NCBI GenBank assembly: GCA_028715905.1 | Contig: JAQUQV010000014.1 | Span: 1-45,690, forward strand | DNA length: 45,690 bases | Origin: Kiritimatiellia bacterium | Lineage (GTDB): Bacteria > Verrucomicrobiota > Kiritimatiellia > JAAZAB01 | Reading direction: 5' to 3' | Part shown: one piece after another, positions 29,431-42,533 of the stretch | Numbering within the stretch: the first letter of the stretch is position 1 | Layout of the letters: each line of letters opens with the position of its first letter | Program-made: the position numbers and the translations under genes | The notes under the pieces: model-generated | Seen by the model: the letters and a program-made list of their open reading frames with translations, nothing else | What the model was told of the DNA's origin: nothing | Database searches by the model: none

Positions 29431-31551
29431 TCACTGAACGGCGTAAACTGCAATCCGATTCCGGGACCATATTTTCCGGAACTTTTCCGGGTTGGCTTCC
29501 AGATAATTTTGCGTTTCCGCGGAATAACAGCGGCTCATTTTAACGGGAAAATCTTCGGGCCAATGCCGCGCGATCCGGCCGGTGGCGCTTAAGCCGCCCC
29601 AGCGGCGATTGATGACAATCAGCCCGCGGCCGCGGAGTTTTTCCCAGGTGTAAGGGCGCGGCTCTTCCGCCGCCGGTTTTGAGGAATGCAGCCATTCCAC
29701 GGGGCGGCAGGTGTTTTTCGGGGCGTAACACCACAGGAATCGGGCGGATATTTTATCCGTCAGGATCACCTTGTTTTCATATTCGGCCAATGCTCGCCCC
29801 AGGTCTTCCCATGCAAGGTAGTCGTTGTTAACGGGAATTTTCCGCAAGGTGTAGACTTTGCTGTAGGGCGCATAAACGCCGGCCGCGTTGACCGGGAAAA
29901 CCAGTCCGACCAATCCGGCAATAATCAGGATGCATCCCGCAAATTTAAGCCATGCCGTCCGCGGCGTTCCCCTGGCGTATTCCCGCGCCTTGCCCAGGAA
30001 ATAAACCAGGAAATAACCGCCGACAAACGGCAGGGGAATCAAGTAAATAAAACGATATAACGCCATCGCCTGTCTTATCCGCACTATCAGGTCAATCGTC
30101 AGGGGGTTGAAAATTGTCAACCATGGAACCACAATCATGCCCGCCAGGAGGTAGGGCAGTTTGACAAAGCGCCGGATCGCCAGAAAGAACAACAGGTACA
30201 CAAACAGCCCCCAGCATCCGATCACCTGGTAAAAAAGGAAGAGCTGGTACGCCGCCAGGCGCAGGTAGGGATTTTGCGGGGGACTGATCAGCGCGCTGCG
30301 GAAAATGAAGTTGACCGGCTCGGACGGAACATTGATATGCGGCAGAATCGTGCGGTCGGAGACCCAGGGGCCCGGGCGGCAATCCCGGATGACCGCAAAC
30401 CCGGCGAAAAAGACAATCAGGAGAACCGCGGCCATGATCGCGGTTTTCCATTCTCCGGTTGTCCAGCCGCGCGGGCGCGCAAGCGGGCCGCGGCAACCGC
30501 GGAAATTCACAGGTTTGTTCCGTAAACTGACCGCCGTTTTTGTCAGGCTAAGCGCCAGGGTCATGAAAAAGATGAACAATGCCTCCTGGGTGTGAACCGC
30601 ATTAGTAACGATCAATAAAACCGGCGCGATCCAGAGCGCGTGGCCGAAGCGCCCCTGGCGTTCGCCGCCGAACCAGTAATTTGATTTCAGCCAGGCCATG
30701 ATCGCCGCCATAGCCGCGAGGAAGAGGACGTAATTGAGAATGGTTGGGCCGAAGGTGTAATAACGGATATAGGCAAACACCGCATTGCCCGTTGTAACGG
30801 CGGCAAACAGCGAAGCCGCCGCGGCCATCATCATTTTTTTAAAAGAGGAAAGACGCAATCCGGCGAACAAATACAGGGCGAAATAATAAATTCCCAGCAG
30901 AAAGACGATCACATTCGCAAATGTCAGCGCCCGGAGCGAATCCATAATTGCCAGGCCGGAAACCAGGCAAAGCCAGGCATGCAGGAAATACCAATGCTGG
31001 CCCTGCACCAGGAAGACCGAGCTGAAAGACGGATTGCCGGAAAATGCGCCCTTGTCCACCACCATTAATTTCTGCGCTTGAAACCGTTCAATGTGCGTCA
31101 GGGCATCGGAAGGAATTTCAAGATAGACGCCGGCGTAAAGGAGATAACCGCAGATTATTCCGGCCAGCGCGAGGGGGATCGCGGCGCGTGAAAAGGCGCG
31201 CCGGCGCATAAAGCTTTTCCCGCCCGGTCCCCGGCCTCCGGTTCTTGCCCCGCTGCCGTTTCCCGCCGCCTGGGGCTTAACGGAACGATTTGAATTCAAT
31301 TTTACAATTGTCCTTGCCAGCGCCCCGGCCGCCAGAATCGCCCAGAGCGCGAAAAAACACCATTGCCAGCGGGCGATCGGCAGGGCGTAATATTTACAGG
31401 GGAGGAGCGTGAGCACGAGCAGGGAATAGGAAAGGGCAAACGAAAGCAGGAAGCGGAATTTCCTGATCCCCAGCATTACGGCGGTAAAAAATCCCGGCAG
31501 AAAAAACAAGGCAAGAAACAGTCCCAAATAGATGATAACGGAAGAAAACAT
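29431..31551 (-). CDS. Polytopic membrane protein, GT-C glycosyltransferase-like
   Basis: A 706-residue protein with at least 11-12 hydrophobic helices (SVIIYLGLFLALFFLPGFF at the N-terminus) and a soluble C-terminal domain from about residue 580. The first large loop contains YLEIPSDALTHIERFQ, placed where GT-C enzymes (GT39/GT83-like) carry their catalytic acidic residue. The C-terminal part (DYLAWEDLGRALAEYENKVI) is seen in other long membrane glycosyltransferases. In this cluster it may transfer a lipid-linked sugar in the periplasm; a polymerase role is an alternative. No SD is visible. Confidence 0.65.
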   Translation of the reverse strand: MFSSVIIYLGLFLALFFLPGFFTAVMLGIRKFRFLLSFALSYSLLVLTLLPCKYYALPIARWQWCFFALWAILAAGALARTIVKLNSNRSVKPQAAGNGSGARTGGRGPGGKSFMRRRAFSRAAIPLALAGIICGYLLYAGVYLEIPSDALTHIERFQAQKLMVVDKGAFSGNPSFSSVFLVQGQHWYFLHAWLCLVSGLAIMDSLRALTFANVIVFLLGIYYFALYLFAGLRLSSFKKMMMAAAASLFAAVTTGNAVFAYIRYYTFGPTILNYVLFLAAMAAIMAWLKSNYWFGGERQGRFGHALWIAPVLLIVTNAVHTQEALFIFFMTLALSLTKTAVSLRNKPVNFRGCRGPLARPRGWTTGEWKTAIMAAVLLIVFFAGFAVIRDCRPGPWVSDRTILPHINVPSEPVNFIFRSALISPPQNPYLRLAAYQLFLFYQVIGCWGLFVYLLFFLAIRRFVKLPYLLAGMIVVPWLTIFNPLTIDLIVRIRQAMALYRFIYLIPLPFVGGYFLVYFLGKAREYARGTPRTAWLKFAGCILIIAGLVGLVFPVNAAGVYAPYSKVYTLRKIPVNNDYLAWEDLGRALAEYENKVILTDKISARFLWCYAPKNTCRPVEWLHSSKPAAEEPRPYTWEKLRGRGLIVINRRWGGLSATGRIARHWPEDFPVKMSRCYSAETQNYLEANPEKFRKIWSRNRIAVYAVQ

Positions 31552-37113: not shown

Positions 37114-37377
37114 TCAGCGCTTGCCGTCTTTAGGGCCATATTGCGCTGTGGGCTCGGCCGCGTATCTCTGCGGGGAAGCCGATGTATCCGGATTTTGATC
37201 CTGCCAACGCAGCGGAAAAGTGATTTTTCCGCCGTTCGCCTCCAGTTGGTCCACGAAAGATTTAACCATAATGCGGATCAAGACGGACTTGGTCAGCCCC
37301 AATCGTTTCGCGGCGCGGTTCAGACGGCGGTTCAAATCGGTATCCAAGCGCACAGGCAGCGATGCTTCTTTTCTCAT
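37114..37377 (-). CDS. Ribbon-helix-helix DNA-binding protein
   Basis: An 87-residue protein. Residues 1-50 fit the RHH pattern: short strand EASLPVRLDTDL, then helices LNRRLNRAAKRLGLTKSVLI and MVKSFVDQLEANG. The tail is polar. SD AAGGAG precedes ATG 37377. Its predicted promoter (TTGTCA-16-TAATAT, 37476-37449, minus) is back-to-back with that of the divergent RHH gene at 37536. It is probably a transcriptional regulator, perhaps of the divergent unit. Confidence 0.75.
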   Translation of the reverse strand: MRKEASLPVRLDTDLNRRLNRAAKRLGLTKSVLIRIMVKSFVDQLEANGGKITFPLRWQDQNPDTSASPQRYAAEPTAQYGPKDGKR

Positions 37378-37788: not shown

Positions 37789-37989
37789 ATGGAGAAAAAA
37801 ACAGGAAAATCTTTGCGCCCTCTGCTGCCCGTATGCGCCTACTGCCGGAAAACGCGCAATAGCAAAGGGGGCTGGGAGCAGGTTGAAATGTGCGTCATCA
37901 ATAATTCGCGCGCAGAACTTACGCATGGGATTTGCCCGGAATGCATGATAAAGATTAAAATGTATATCCGCGCCCTTGGTATTACCTGA
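37789..37989 (+). CDS. Stand-alone CxxC domain protein, otherwise found at sensor kinase C-termini
   Basis: A 66-residue protein. LLPVCAYCRKTRNSKGGWEQ, then VEMCVIN and LTHGICPECMIKIK, matches the short CxxC...HGICPxC module usually found fused to the C-terminus of PAS/GGDEF/kinase proteins. The four paired cysteines may bind zinc. Here it has no sensor attached: the frame upstream of ATG 37789 is not domain-like, and no SD is present. It is either a free-standing domain or the remnant of a larger gene. Its stop overlaps the left arm of a 21-bp hairpin. Confidence 0.55.
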   Translation: MEKKTGKSLRPLLPVCAYCRKTRNSKGGWEQVEMCVINNSRAELTHGICPECMIKIKMYIRALGIT

Positions 37990-38024
37990 ATATTGCACGA
38001 ATTTCGTGCAATATTCAGGTAATA
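37980..38024. terminator. 21-bp perfect inverted repeat, probable terminator
   Basis: Bases 37980-38000 are the exact reverse complement of 38004-38024 with a 3-base ATT loop; the centre reads GCACGAATTTCGTGC. TATTTTG follows on the plus strand. The stem includes the stop codon of the preceding small gene. It is unusually long and A/T-rich for an intrinsic terminator. Confidence 0.7.
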
Positions 38025-38110: not shown

Positions 38111-39193
38111 ATGAGTAACCGAATTTTATTCAGGCTCAAACCGGTGATATGTTTTCTGTCGCCGTGGTTAATAACCTGTGTTTCAAGCATGGCCGTTGAT
38201 CAGCGTCAAATTATTGCCGAAGGCGATGCGCAATGGCACGCCATCGCCGGTTCGGGCAGTCTGGCAATCAGCGTTTCGTATTCCGCAGACAGCGCGCTGG
38301 CCATAAATTGTCCGGTCGGCGTTTCAGCCAATGCTGATTTTTTCAATGATGGCGGCTTTTATATCCGGCATGACGTGCGCCGCACGATCTTCCGCTGTGA
38401 TTTTGACGGCGACGGGCGGACAGACGCCTGGACTTATGACGAAGAAAACGGGATATGGTATTTTATCCTCTCAACTTCTTCGGGAATGATTCAATCTGTA
38501 AATTTTGGCGGGCCGGGGGGGTTGGCCTGTCCCGAAGATTACGACGGCGACGGCAAAGCGGATCCGTGCATCTATTGGCAGGCGGATGGCTTGTGGCAAA
38601 TGGCATTGTCAGACAGCAGTTACGCATCCGCGATATACGTTGTGCCGCCGGAAGAATTGCCTGCGGCCGGCGATTATGACGGTGATGGATATGCCGATTT
38701 CGCCTTCTTTATGCCGGAAACACAACGCTGGACGGTGTTTCTTTCAAAGCAATTGTACGCCGTCGTTGTGTTTTTCTATGGCGAGGCCAATGCGATGCCG
38801 GCTGTTGCCGACTTTGACGGCGACGGTCTGACGGATCCTGCCGTTTATCAGGAAGAAACCGGACGCTGGATGGTAACGTTGTCTTCCGGTCAGTACAGAT
38901 CGGTTTCTTTTTCCCTAGGCGGCTGCGGTTATCTGCCGGTGCCGGCCGATTATGACGGCGATCTCATAGCTGATCCAATGGTCTACGAGCCGAGTGCCGG
39001 TTTCTGGAAAGGATTTCTTTCCGCTGAGGGGTATCAGGGCGTTGACGCCCATTTCGGCGGCGAAGGCGCAATGCCGTATAGAGGTGATTATGATAACGAC
39101 GGAATGTCGGATCTGGCCGTTTTAAGCCGGGACCAAACCGCATTATTTCTGTTCAAATCAACCGAAGGTTTTGCCGTTATTCCTCCCCGGTAA
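38111..39193 (+). CDS. Secreted protein of six 46-residue DxDxDG repeats (FG-GAP/VCBS-like)
   Basis: A 360-residue protein with an N-terminal signal peptide (ICFLSPWLITCVSSMA). Six calcium-site-like motifs, DFDGDGRTD, DYDGDGKAD, DYDGDGYAD, DFDGDGLTD, DYDGDLIAD and DYDNDGMSD, begin at residues 97, 143, 188, 234, 280 and 326. Each unit continues with a W...LS strand and ends in a GG/GxxPxxxDYDGD turn. Such repeats build beta-propeller domains that bind Ca2+ and often carbohydrate or protein ligands. The fifth motif lacks the second glycine. It is the first of four exported proteins in a row; the SD is weak (AGGGA). Confidence 0.8.
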   Translation: MSNRILFRLKPVICFLSPWLITCVSSMAVDQRQIIAEGDAQWHAIAGSGSLAISVSYSADSALAINCPVGVSANADFFNDGGFYIRHDVRRTIFRCDFDGDGRTDAWTYDEENGIWYFILSTSSGMIQSVNFGGPGGLACPEDYDGDGKADPCIYWQADGLWQMALSDSSYASAIYVVPPEELPAAGDYDGDGYADFAFFMPETQRWTVFLSKQLYAVVVFFYGEANAMPAVADFDGDGLTDPAVYQEETGRWMVTLSSGQYRSVSFSLGGCGYLPVPADYDGDLIADPMVYEPSAGFWKGFLSAEGYQGVDAHFGGEGAMPYRGDYDNDGMSDLAVLSRDQTALFLFKSTEGFAVIPPR

Positions 39194-39244
39194 CCCATGT
39201 TTTTTCTTTTGGCGTGACGCCCGTGTTTGTGCGTTATCAATCGC

Positions 39245-40519
39245 ATGAGAACATTGAACGGCAAATATATCATGCGGATATGTCTCCTTGTCTGGCTTTG
39301 GCCGTTGGCCTTTCTTCAGGCTGAACCGGCCGGCGTGATAAACTATCAGGGACGACTGCTGGATAAATACGGCCGGCGCGTAAATTCTCCGGTTGAAATC
39401 ATATTCCGCATATTTAACGGCGGGAAGGAACCGCTCTGGTCGGAAAAACACGATTCTATACCGGTCAAAGACGGATTGTATTCAACGACTCTCGGTTCGC
39501 AGACGCCGCTTCCTGCGTCAATATTTGAAGACGATGAATTATACTTTGAAATATGCATCAACGGAGAAACACTGTCTCCCCGCCAGCGCATTACCGCTTC
39601 CCCCTATGCGCTCACCGCGCGGACCGTCAGCGGTCCGGACCTGTATGTCGCGCCGAATGGGAGAGTGGGAATCGGTACGCAAACCCCCAGTGAAAAACTG
39701 GATGTTAAAGGCGCCATTCAGGTCGCAGGCTTCAAAATGCCGGCCGGCGCGGCCGCCGGTTATGTGCTGGTTTCCGATGCCGCCGGCGCCGGCCGTTGGC
39801 AGGCTGTTTTGCCCGGCGACGCCGGCATTACCAACTGGGCTAACGAAGTGTTTTCGCCGGCTACCAATGATCTCTGGGCCGCGGTCAACGCGCGCGTTGC
39901 GGCTTCCGCTTATAGCATTGCCACCGGAAATCTATGGACAGCCGTCGGCCGGCGCGTTTTCATCGCCGATTATTCTGCCGCGACCGGCGAAATCTGGAAT
40001 GCAATCAGTATGCGCCTGCCGGTAAGCGGCGGAGTAATGAGCGGGCCGTTGACCAATAACGCCGGTTTTTTCGGCGACGGCGCCGGTCTCACCAATATTC
40101 AGGTTGTCGTCACGGATACGGCGGCCGTTCATAAGGCCGGCGATTCAATGACCGGCCCGCTGATCGTGAGCAATAATCTGTCCGTATCCGGCCGCGTGAT
40201 CTGGGATCCGGGCAATCAGACCATATATGACAATAATACCACAATCCAGGTGGCGCGGGCGTTCACAAGAATCGGAACCGATGGAACGCTCCGGGACTTC
40301 GCCGGTTGTGCGCTGCAAATTGCTCCGGGCGCAGCCGGCCAGGCGCTTATTATCCAGGCCACCAACAGCTGTGTCAGGCTGAGCGACGGCAAGGGCCTCA
40401 AACTGGCCGAGGGCGTGAATTTTTATATGAGCACCAATGATCTTATTCAATTCATTTATGACGGGTCAAACTGGGTTGAAATCCGGCGGACGGACAATGA
40501 CGACCATTACCGCCCCTGA
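39245..40519 (+). CDS. Secreted tail-fibre/adhesin-like protein A
   Basis: A 424-residue exported protein. Signal helix MRICLLVWLWPLAFLQA; residues about 30-125 are a beta domain (INYQGRLLDKYGRRVNSPVE) that occurs at the start of many bacterial secreted proteins before fibre-like regions. GRVGIGTQTPSEKLDVKG and AGDSMTGPLIVSNNLSVSG are hallmarks of phage tail fibres and S74-type adhesins. The last about 95 residues (from NQTIYDNNTTIQVARAF to YDGSNWVEIRRTDN) are shared with the next gene. ATG 39245 is chosen; 39272 is possible, neither has an SD. It is probably displayed at the cell surface. Confidence 0.75.
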   Translation: MRTLNGKYIMRICLLVWLWPLAFLQAEPAGVINYQGRLLDKYGRRVNSPVEIIFRIFNGGKEPLWSEKHDSIPVKDGLYSTTLGSQTPLPASIFEDDELYFEICINGETLSPRQRITASPYALTARTVSGPDLYVAPNGRVGIGTQTPSEKLDVKGAIQVAGFKMPAGAAAGYVLVSDAAGAGRWQAVLPGDAGITNWANEVFSPATNDLWAAVNARVAASAYSIATGNLWTAVGRRVFIADYSAATGEIWNAISMRLPVSGGVMSGPLTNNAGFFGDGAGLTNIQVVVTDTAAVHKAGDSMTGPLIVSNNLSVSGRVIWDPGNQTIYDNNTTIQVARAFTRIGTDGTLRDFAGCALQIAPGAAGQALIIQATNSCVRLSDGKGLKLAEGVNFYMSTNDLIQFIYDGSNWVEIRRTDNDDHYRP

Positions 40520-40529
40520 ATAAAAACAA

Positions 40530-40560
40530 CAGACGCATTCAGTCTGATTTTTTGAATGCG
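40530..40560 (+). terminator. Weak terminator overlapping an alternative hairpin
   Basis: CAGAC (40530-40534) and GTCTG (40542-40546) form a 5-bp hairpin followed by ATTTTTT, 10 bases after the stop of protein A. CGCATTCA (40534-40541) can instead pair with TGAATGCG (40553-40560), which would disrupt the terminator. Confidence 0.4.
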
Positions 40561-40649
40561 AAAATAAGGAAAGGAGGGAAGACGGATACAAAAATGTTCG
40601 CAAGTCAACTGTAACAGTTAAACGAAACGGAAAAAGGAGTAAATAAGCA

Positions 40650-41561
40650 ATGAAGATGAGACAGATAACAATGAGAGCAATAATCGGTGCGGTCACCGCG
40701 CTTGCGGCGTTGTCGCCGGCCGTTGTGTCGGCTGTTGAGGACGGCCAGGGCACCAACGTGGTCAGAAGTTTACGTGCTACCGAAGCCATAGAGCTGGGTG
40801 GCGAAAGGATTGCGTCCTGGAATGAGATACCGGGCACAGACCTGACGGAACTGGAAAGCGCAACGAACGCGTTGAATGCGCGCGTTGGCAACCTGGAAAG
40901 TGCCACGAATGCGCTGAATGACGCCGTCAACGCGGAAACCACGGCGCGTGAAAACGCCGACGCCGCCCTGCAGGATAATATTAACGCCGAAACCCTGGCG
41001 CGCGAAAACGCGGATTCTGCATTGGAAAGTGCAACGAACGTGTTGAATACGCGCGTTGGCAATCTGGAAAGCGCCACGAATGCGCTGAATGACGCCGTCA
41101 ACGCGGAAACCACGGCGCGCGAAAACGCGGATATTGCCCTGCAGGATGCCACGAACTCGCTAAACGGCCGCGTCGGCAGCCTGGAAACGGCCACGAACGC
41201 GCTCGATTCGTCCGTCAACGCGTTGAATGCGCGCACGAATGACTGGAATATGGCCGTTTATACGCCCGGCTCGCAGCAGATTCCCGATAATAATACGACG
41301 GTGTCGGTTGCCCGGGCGGTCGCGAAGATCGGCAACGACGGCTCTCCGGTGTCGTTCTCGGATTGCGAGAAGTCAATCGCGGCGGGATCCATCGGTCAGT
41401 TCCTCACGGTCATCTGTACCAATGACGCTCCTATCAAGTTTAGCAACGGCAAGGGCGTGATACTTGCGGAAGGCGTGAGTTTTTCAATGAATTCCCATGA
41501 CGTCATTCAACTGGTTTATGACGGAGCAAATTGGGTGGAAGTGCATCGGACGGATAATTAA
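40650..41561 (+). CDS. Secreted trimeric-coiled-coil-like protein B
   Basis: A 303-residue exported protein. Signal peptide to about residue 28 (AALSPAVVSA). The N-terminal motif VEDGQGTN...RATEAIELGGERIASWNEI is shared with the gene at 41829. Residues about 65-205 are heptad-like ELESATNALNARVGNLESAT units with a 57-residue (171-base) duplication (40851 and 41022), typical of trimeric adhesin stalks. The C-terminal about 95 residues (QIPDNNTTVSVARAVAKIGN ... YDGANWVEVHRTDN) match protein A. Strong SD AAGGAG before ATG 40650. It is probably a surface stalk with a globular head. Confidence 0.78.
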   Translation: MKMRQITMRAIIGAVTALAALSPAVVSAVEDGQGTNVVRSLRATEAIELGGERIASWNEIPGTDLTELESATNALNARVGNLESATNALNDAVNAETTARENADAALQDNINAETLARENADSALESATNVLNTRVGNLESATNALNDAVNAETTARENADIALQDATNSLNGRVGSLETATNALDSSVNALNARTNDWNMAVYTPGSQQIPDNNTTVSVARAVAKIGNDGSPVSFSDCEKSIAAGSIGQFLTVICTNDAPIKFSNGKGVILAEGVSFSMNSHDVIQLVYDGANWVEVHRTDN

Positions 41562-41828
41562 AGCGTTCCGTTGCGGCGAGTGACAAATTTACGGAGAAGT
41601 TTGCCCGGGCGCTGGCCAGGGTTTGAAACCTTGCCGGCGGTCGGCCAACCGCTGGTTTGAGATGAGGGCCATGCCGCATCAGCGCCTTGGTGGCCGGAAA
41701 TTTGCCAGGAAAAGCATGCGGCAGGCAGATTGCCATCGGCATCGTGCGTAGCCTTGCGGGTGGCGGTTCGCTGTGGGGTCTTAATCCATGCCTTTCGTCC
41801 GGCGGCAGGCTCCTCAAGACGGTGATAT
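41562..41828. other. 267-base gap with no recognised gene
   Basis: Open frames on the minus strand run across it but show no family features and extend into the neighbouring genes, so they are not supported. No strong hairpin or promoter was recognised. It separates secreted proteins B and C. Confidence 0.5.
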
Positions 41829-42533
41829 ATGAATAAAAAAAGAGCCCTTGAAATATCGGCCATGGTCGCGCTTGGCATTCTGGCGCCGTCATTTACATTT
41901 GGCGTAGAAACCGGGACGAGCACTAACCAGGCCGCCAATTTTTACGCCACGAATTCCATGACTTTGCGGGGCACGACCATCACCGGATGGCGTGATTTGA
42001 CCAATGTTCTGGATTCTTTCTATGTCAGGGATGCTTCATTCTGGTCTCATTATCCGGCGGTCGGCAATGTTGACTTGGCGAACAGGGAATTGATCAATGT
42101 GTCGGCCTTGACGCTGGGCGGCCGGCGCAGAAGGGATTGGCCGGGACAAACCATAACCTTTCTGGCCCAGGGATCGGCTTTCCGTTGGAGGAACCAGCCG
42201 ACGGATATGACGGAATTCGCCGGATATACTATCCACAGAACGCAGGTTGATTTGTCGGATTATACCGAGGCCAGATTGACGGTTCTGGTTGCTACCGCCA
42301 ACACTACCCAGGGGGCCGGCATTCTTGTGCAATATTCCACGGACCAATCAGATTGGGATTATCTGGACGGTGATTCCGGTCCCGGCGTTTCCATTACCTC
42401 AACCGGATTAAAGGCAAGCAAATGGGTAAAGCTTACTCAAGGAGCACGGCAAGACGTGTGCATCCGCATTGTGGGAATTAAGGGTGGGGATCGCAGTCCC
42501 TCTTTCGGTCTTATTACTTTACAGTTAAAATAA
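41829..42533 (+). CDS. Secreted protein C with shared N-terminal motif
   Basis: A 234-residue exported protein. Signal peptide MNKKRALEISAMVALGILAP continuing SFTFG. The mature start VETGTSTN...YATNSMTLRGTTITGWRDL aligns residue for residue with the mature start of protein B. The C-terminal half (VDLSDYTEARLTVLVATANT, later SKWVKLTQGARQDVCIRIVG) looks like a beta-sandwich of carbohydrate-binding type. It is not assigned to a named family. It ends 16 bases from the convergent Gfo/Idh gene. Probably surface or extracellular. Confidence 0.72.
   Translation: MNKKRALEISAMVALGILAPSFTFGVETGTSTNQAANFYATNSMTLRGTTITGWRDLTNVLDSFYVRDASFWSHYPAVGNVDLANRELINVSALTLGGRRRRDWPGQTITFLAQGSAFRWRNQPTDMTEFAGYTIHRTQVDLSDYTEARLTVLVATANTTQGAGILVQYSTDQSDWDYLDGDSGPGVSITSTGLKASKWVKLTQGARQDVCIRIVGIKGGDRSPSFGLITLQLK

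Follow-up and report, generated by a model that had tools for sequence, protein, structure and literature searches.

Mosaic secreted proteins with phage-type tips form a conserved but rare gene row in Kiritimatiellae, close in kind to MAT fibers

The window analyzed here comprises an entire contig (45,690 bases) of a 2.67 Mb genome from the class Kiritimatiellae. It contains a row of genes for modular proteins that is real, conserved but rare, and close in kind to the mosaic adhesive trimer (MAT) fibers of Bdellovibrio bacteriovorus. On balance, we favor the view that the genes of this row specify a few exported surface fibers, probably trimeric, with phage-type tips. The four open reading frames of the row, all on the forward strand, lie where a preliminary description of this stretch had placed them: 38111–39193 (a repeat protein), 39245–40519 (protein A, with an alternative ATG possible at 39272), 40650–41561 (protein B) and 41829–42533 (protein C). 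A perfect 22-bp inverted repeat with a T-rich tail (37980–38024, forward strand), found in a consensus scan only, is terminator-like and may mark the upstream border of the row. Upstream, on the opposite strand, are lpxB and genes for a glycosyltransferase and an epimerase, together with polysaccharide genes, and the row is followed by genes for a Gfo/Idh/MocA oxidoreductase, lpxI and an AraC-type regulator. The polysaccharide cluster includes an ORF of 706 residues without a Pfam match (29431–31551, reverse strand), and a small ribbon-helix-helix (CopG-like) protein is encoded upstream of lpxB (37114–37377, reverse strand).

The first gene of the row (38111–39193) encodes a secreted protein with DxDGDG units spaced by 138, 135, 138 and 138 bp, that is, 46, 45, 46 and 46 residues; described earlier as a 46-residue DxDxDG repeat protein, it can now be assigned to the FG-GAP repeats (Pfam FG-GAP_3, E 1.9e-14). 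It is 35% identical (E 3e-50) to the syntenic protein of another genome in the same family (G006), and we regard it as a putative conserved secreted partner of the fibers.

Protein A is best read, from its sequence, as MAT-like. Members of the MAT superfamily combine a signal peptide, a beta-rich N-terminal domain, a beta-helix with capping-loop units and exchangeable C-terminal tips, including beta-sandwiches that are not of the S74 type (Caulton et al. 2024, PMC10769870). A resembles them by sequence, with a hydrophobic, signal-like N-terminus, a MAT_N-like domain, a beta-helix unit, a helical and tail-fiber-like stalk, and a tip. The MAT_N-like domain (39290–39511) scores 28.6 bits (E 1.1e-6) against the NCBI model Bdello_MAT_N (NF053851), far under the curated cut-off of 60, and the ortholog of A in G006 scores 26.2 bits. 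The beta-helix/capping-loop unit (GRVGIGTQTPSEKLDVKG..., 39623–39802) is recognizable by sequence: when the segment spanning approximately residues 128–186 was compared with all solved structures (phmmer, up to E 1), six matches were obtained, namely, five Bdellovibrio MATs (8OND, 8OML, 8OJN, 8OL4 and 8ON4) and MyRF, whose S74-type fiber is also cited in the MAT paper (PMC10769870). The match to 8OND (Bd2133) had an E-value of 1.1e-6 and those to the other four MAT chains E-values of 0.01–0.11. All the matched MAT crystal structures are trimeric, and, by analogy with MATs and tail fibers, the proteins described here may trimerize as well. Together with matches to viral fibers, these results bear out the tail-fiber-like segments previously noticed in A. 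The tip (40199–40498) is non-S74 and of the PF25692 (Phage_depo_C) type, scoring 27.2 bits (cut-off 25). The single-chain AlphaFold models of A and C were poor (mean pLDDT 51 and 45) and too weak for Foldseek to yield usable named folds; the top match of the A model, an Acinetobacter phage tailspike depolymerase (E 4e-5), is consistent with the above and was not relied on.

Protein B consists of a signal, a short anchor, a coiled-coil stalk and a tip. The stalk (40833–41249), which had been described as coiled-coil, contains a 171-bp internal repeat, shows helix periodicity (p ~0.01–0.03) and matches the coiled coils of phage tail fibers; matches of B to PADLOC models, SMC and Rad50 were rejected as coiled-coil noise. 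Its tip (41256–41558) is the C-terminal domain that B was said to have in common with A: the two are identical at 52 of 101 positions (E 4e-33), with DNA approximately 65% identical over the tip, and they are sisters in the tip tree (support 95/94). The B tip scores 20.1 bits against PF25692, under the cut-off when taken alone, and its assignment to this type follows from its 52% identity to A.

What B has in common with protein C is the mature N-terminus, here called the anchor, located at 40734–40829 in B (VEDGQGTNVVRSLRATEAIELGGERIASWNEI) and at 41904–41999 in C (VETGTSTNQAANFYATNSMTLRGTTITGWRDL). The N-termini of B and C are identical at 19 of 53 positions (E 2e-6), and the score of 55 attained by the 36 mature residues alone was reached by none of 20,000 shuffles. 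This confirms the N-terminal motif proposed for the two proteins, written here as V-E-x-G-x-x-T-N...L-x-G-x-x-I-x-x-W. In a six-frame translation of the window, no other place gave a comparable score, and A and C have no detectable common part. The L.G..I..W half is found at the end of a stalk repeat in other fibers too, which leaves V-E-x-G-x-x-T-N as the only anchor-specific half. All 11 anchor proteins have a hydrophobic N-terminus, with Ala, Gly or Ser immediately before the anchor, and a lipobox is absent from all eleven. In B and C, the anchor begins at the predicted mature N-terminus, preceded in C by TFG, a less typical cleavage site. Neither protein matches NF053851 (MAT_N). The literature searched yielded no description of this anchor and nothing relevant on fibers of Kiritimatiellota or Verrucomicrobia.

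Protein C carries, between a signal plus anchor and a tip unlike those of A and B, a single 39-residue stalk unit (WSHYPAVGNVDLANRELINVSALTLGGRRRRDWP, 42033–42149) with the consensus WSxYPAxxxVDxAxxxLxNVxxIxLGGxxRxxWP (E 6e-25, with the window unit itself included in the profile). The end of this unit resembles the L.G..I..W half of the anchor. It is approximately 50% identical to repeats in a fiber-like protein of another genome of the same family (G007); that protein, of 750 residues (L074, G007:C80), contains repeated units ending in LGGxxRxxWP, of which C has one. This unit, like the identification of the MATs as the closest known kind, is absent from the preliminary description. The tip of C (42147–42530) is weakly modelled as all-beta.

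The tips have clear relatives in phages. An ordinary search with C or its tip found no relative among the genomes of the class, phages or plasmids; a degenerate pattern recovered one, a protein of 401 residues encoded on a viral contig that also carries genes for portal, scaffold, head and tail proteins, and the last 129 residues of this protein are 54% identical to the C tip (E 9e-40). Viral contigs also encode tail-fiber-like proteins that end in domains of the A/B type (48%, 42% and 48% identity, with the copy from G025 as query). Relatives of the anchor were not found in viral contigs. One further viral-contig protein (L089 625–3309) has a signal-like N-terminus, a part resembling a right-handed beta-helix and an A/B-type tip, and looks intermediate between a phage fiber and a secreted protein.

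Exchange of tips can be seen directly by comparison with G006, which keeps the gene order FG-GAP, A, B. The A proteins are 42% identical over their full length (E 1e-102). The B orthologs are 39% identical over the anchor and stalk (E 1e-19) and have unrelated C-termini, that of G006 matching an annotated tail fiber of Flavobacterium phages (35.7%, E 5e-8). The syntenic B gene has the same anchor and stalk and another tip, in support of the interchangeable heads put forward on the window sequence alone. In a tree of 11 tips, those of A and B from the window are sisters (95/94), and the tip of A's ortholog is placed elsewhere, with weak support. On this evidence, the simplest reading would be either copying of a tip between A and B within the window lineage or replacement of the B tip in G006. 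Adjoining the B ortholog in G006 is a gene (L012 2918–8512) for a protein of 1,864 residues with Ala/Lys/Glu-rich coiled-coil repeats and DLSRRSALAK motifs, whose C-terminus may be an outer-membrane barrel; it is a candidate holder or exporter.

Across 288 genomes of the class, the tip profile matched seven and the mature-anchor profile six (E below 1e-7). The six genomes with an anchor (G000, G006, G025, G037, G175 and G186, from families f1, f17 and f45) all have the tip, and, in each, the two fall in one locus. A lack of such co-occurrence had been named beforehand as an observation that would refute the proposal, and the opposite was found; the hypergeometric probability of the overlap is 9e-12, without correction for kinship. 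The seventh tip match, which is weak, comes from G154, where terminase and portal genes adjoin it. The independent model PF25692 matches only the fiber loci within the six genomes, and no additional genome carrying the full anchor emerged from 388 genomes drawn across the phylum.

In f17 and f45, the row begins with a small tip protein that has another N-terminus. It is followed by a long fiber (approximately 1,050–1,270 residues) carrying both anchor and tip, by a short anchor protein whose C-terminal part is unrelated, and by a large FG-GAP protein (approximately 1,260 residues); the G025 copy is truncated by the contig end, and in G037 one additional ORF intervenes. The long stalk in G025 matches families of phage virion proteins (PHROG, best E 2e-64). 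C-like proteins of other families were rejected as relatives of C at the tip (hhalign probability 0.2%). In G175 and G186, two PseB/PseC-like genes (L051 8132–10353, L052 5874–8230), for a nucleotide-sugar dehydratase and an aminotransferase of surface sugar synthesis, lie directly upstream of the row. MAT_N-like domains occur in at least 19 of 97 genomes of the class, a lower bound from a census that missed A and its G006 ortholog, both of which other searches find; one protein of the class joins such a domain to a Peptidase_S74 chaperone, the architecture seen in Bdellovibrio.

Under the explanation that we favor, each fiber would be exported by a cleaved Sec signal and held at the cell by its base, the MAT_N-like domain in A and the short VExGxxTN segment in B and C. 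The stalk would be a beta-helix with helices in A, a coiled coil in B and one 39-residue unit in C, and the C-terminal tip, of the phage tail-fiber type, would bind a surface ligand, whether a glycan or another. Base and stalk would be retained through recombination while the tip is exchanged, so that one gene slot could change binding specificity. Such fibers, if displayed on the surface, may serve in attachment to other cells, particles or polysaccharides, and the surface-glycan genes neighboring the row in the window and in G175 and G186 fit attachment roles, without deciding among them.

These same neighbors can also be read in another way. The proteins could be secreted glycan-binding or matrix proteins that hold or help degrade polysaccharides rather than contact cells, with the tips serving as carbohydrate-binding modules and the FG-GAP protein providing a matrix or calcium-binding scaffold. 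Polysaccharide degradation is common among Kiritimatiellota, LPS and polysaccharide genes adjoin the row, the FG-GAP partner is present in both gene orders, and no lipobox would tether the proteins. However, the row encodes no catalytic domain, and the stalk-plus-tip architecture, along with its relatives, is that of receptor-binding fibers, so we consider this reading rather unlikely, if worth keeping in mind.

The viral relatives of tips and stalks, and the weak G154 match among terminase and portal genes, could instead suggest a prophage or tailocin remnant in which the fibers belong to a particle. This interpretation is already largely refuted and appears very improbable: A, B and C have signal-like N-termini, the neighbors examined are genes of lipid A, polysaccharides and metabolism with no virion genes among them, reading of the ORFs beside the six loci, a portion of which were also scanned, brought no capsid, portal or tail genes to notice, and the row is kept together with its FG-GAP partner. 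Least probable of all is that the exported tips, being of phage type, cover glycans on the cell's own surface and thereby keep phages from adsorbing, an idea prompted by the tail-fiber relatives of the tips and by the surface-glycan genes flanking the row in the window and in G175 and G186, but purely circumstantial; shielding needs no long stalks, and the rows of G025 and G037 showed no glycan genes of this kind next to them.

Returning to exported surface fibers, comparison with known systems brings out what is distinct in this row. A is far under the MAT_N cut-off and has 424 residues, compared with typically ~1,000 in MATs (626–843 in short ones); unlike MATs, B and C lack MAT_N and have a different, short anchor. 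The Kiritimatiellae genes form a row of approximately three with an FG-GAP partner, whereas Bdellovibrio has 21. Phage tail fibers and depolymerases with PF25692 are alike in the A/B tip and in coiled-coil and decoration-type stalk segments, but the proteins described here are apparently exported by signal peptides, are encoded in bacterial loci without virion genes and have no depolymerase domain. YadA-type trimeric autotransporter adhesins are likewise modular secreted fibers with coiled-coil stalks; they differ in their C-terminal YadA membrane anchor, a barrel for which Pfam gave no match to any of the three proteins, whereas here the C-terminus holds the tip and the N-terminus the presumed base. 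More tentatively, the VExGxxTN segment might be a new docking signal, with one cell-surface holder displaying any fiber that starts with it; if so, this would be a plug-in display system, in which phage-derived tips are swapped and binding is changed.

In Bdellovibrio, a predator, MATs are fibers for prey recognition (PMC10769870). Our findings suggest that the mosaic-fiber principle of this predator holds in Kiritimatiellae too, where the base is different, and exchange is directly visible here, in the same gene slot, with base and stalk kept and the tip replaced. Because the tips have clear viral relatives, their ligands can be tested in binding assays, and the short anchor provides a defined handle for finding how such fibers are held on the cell.
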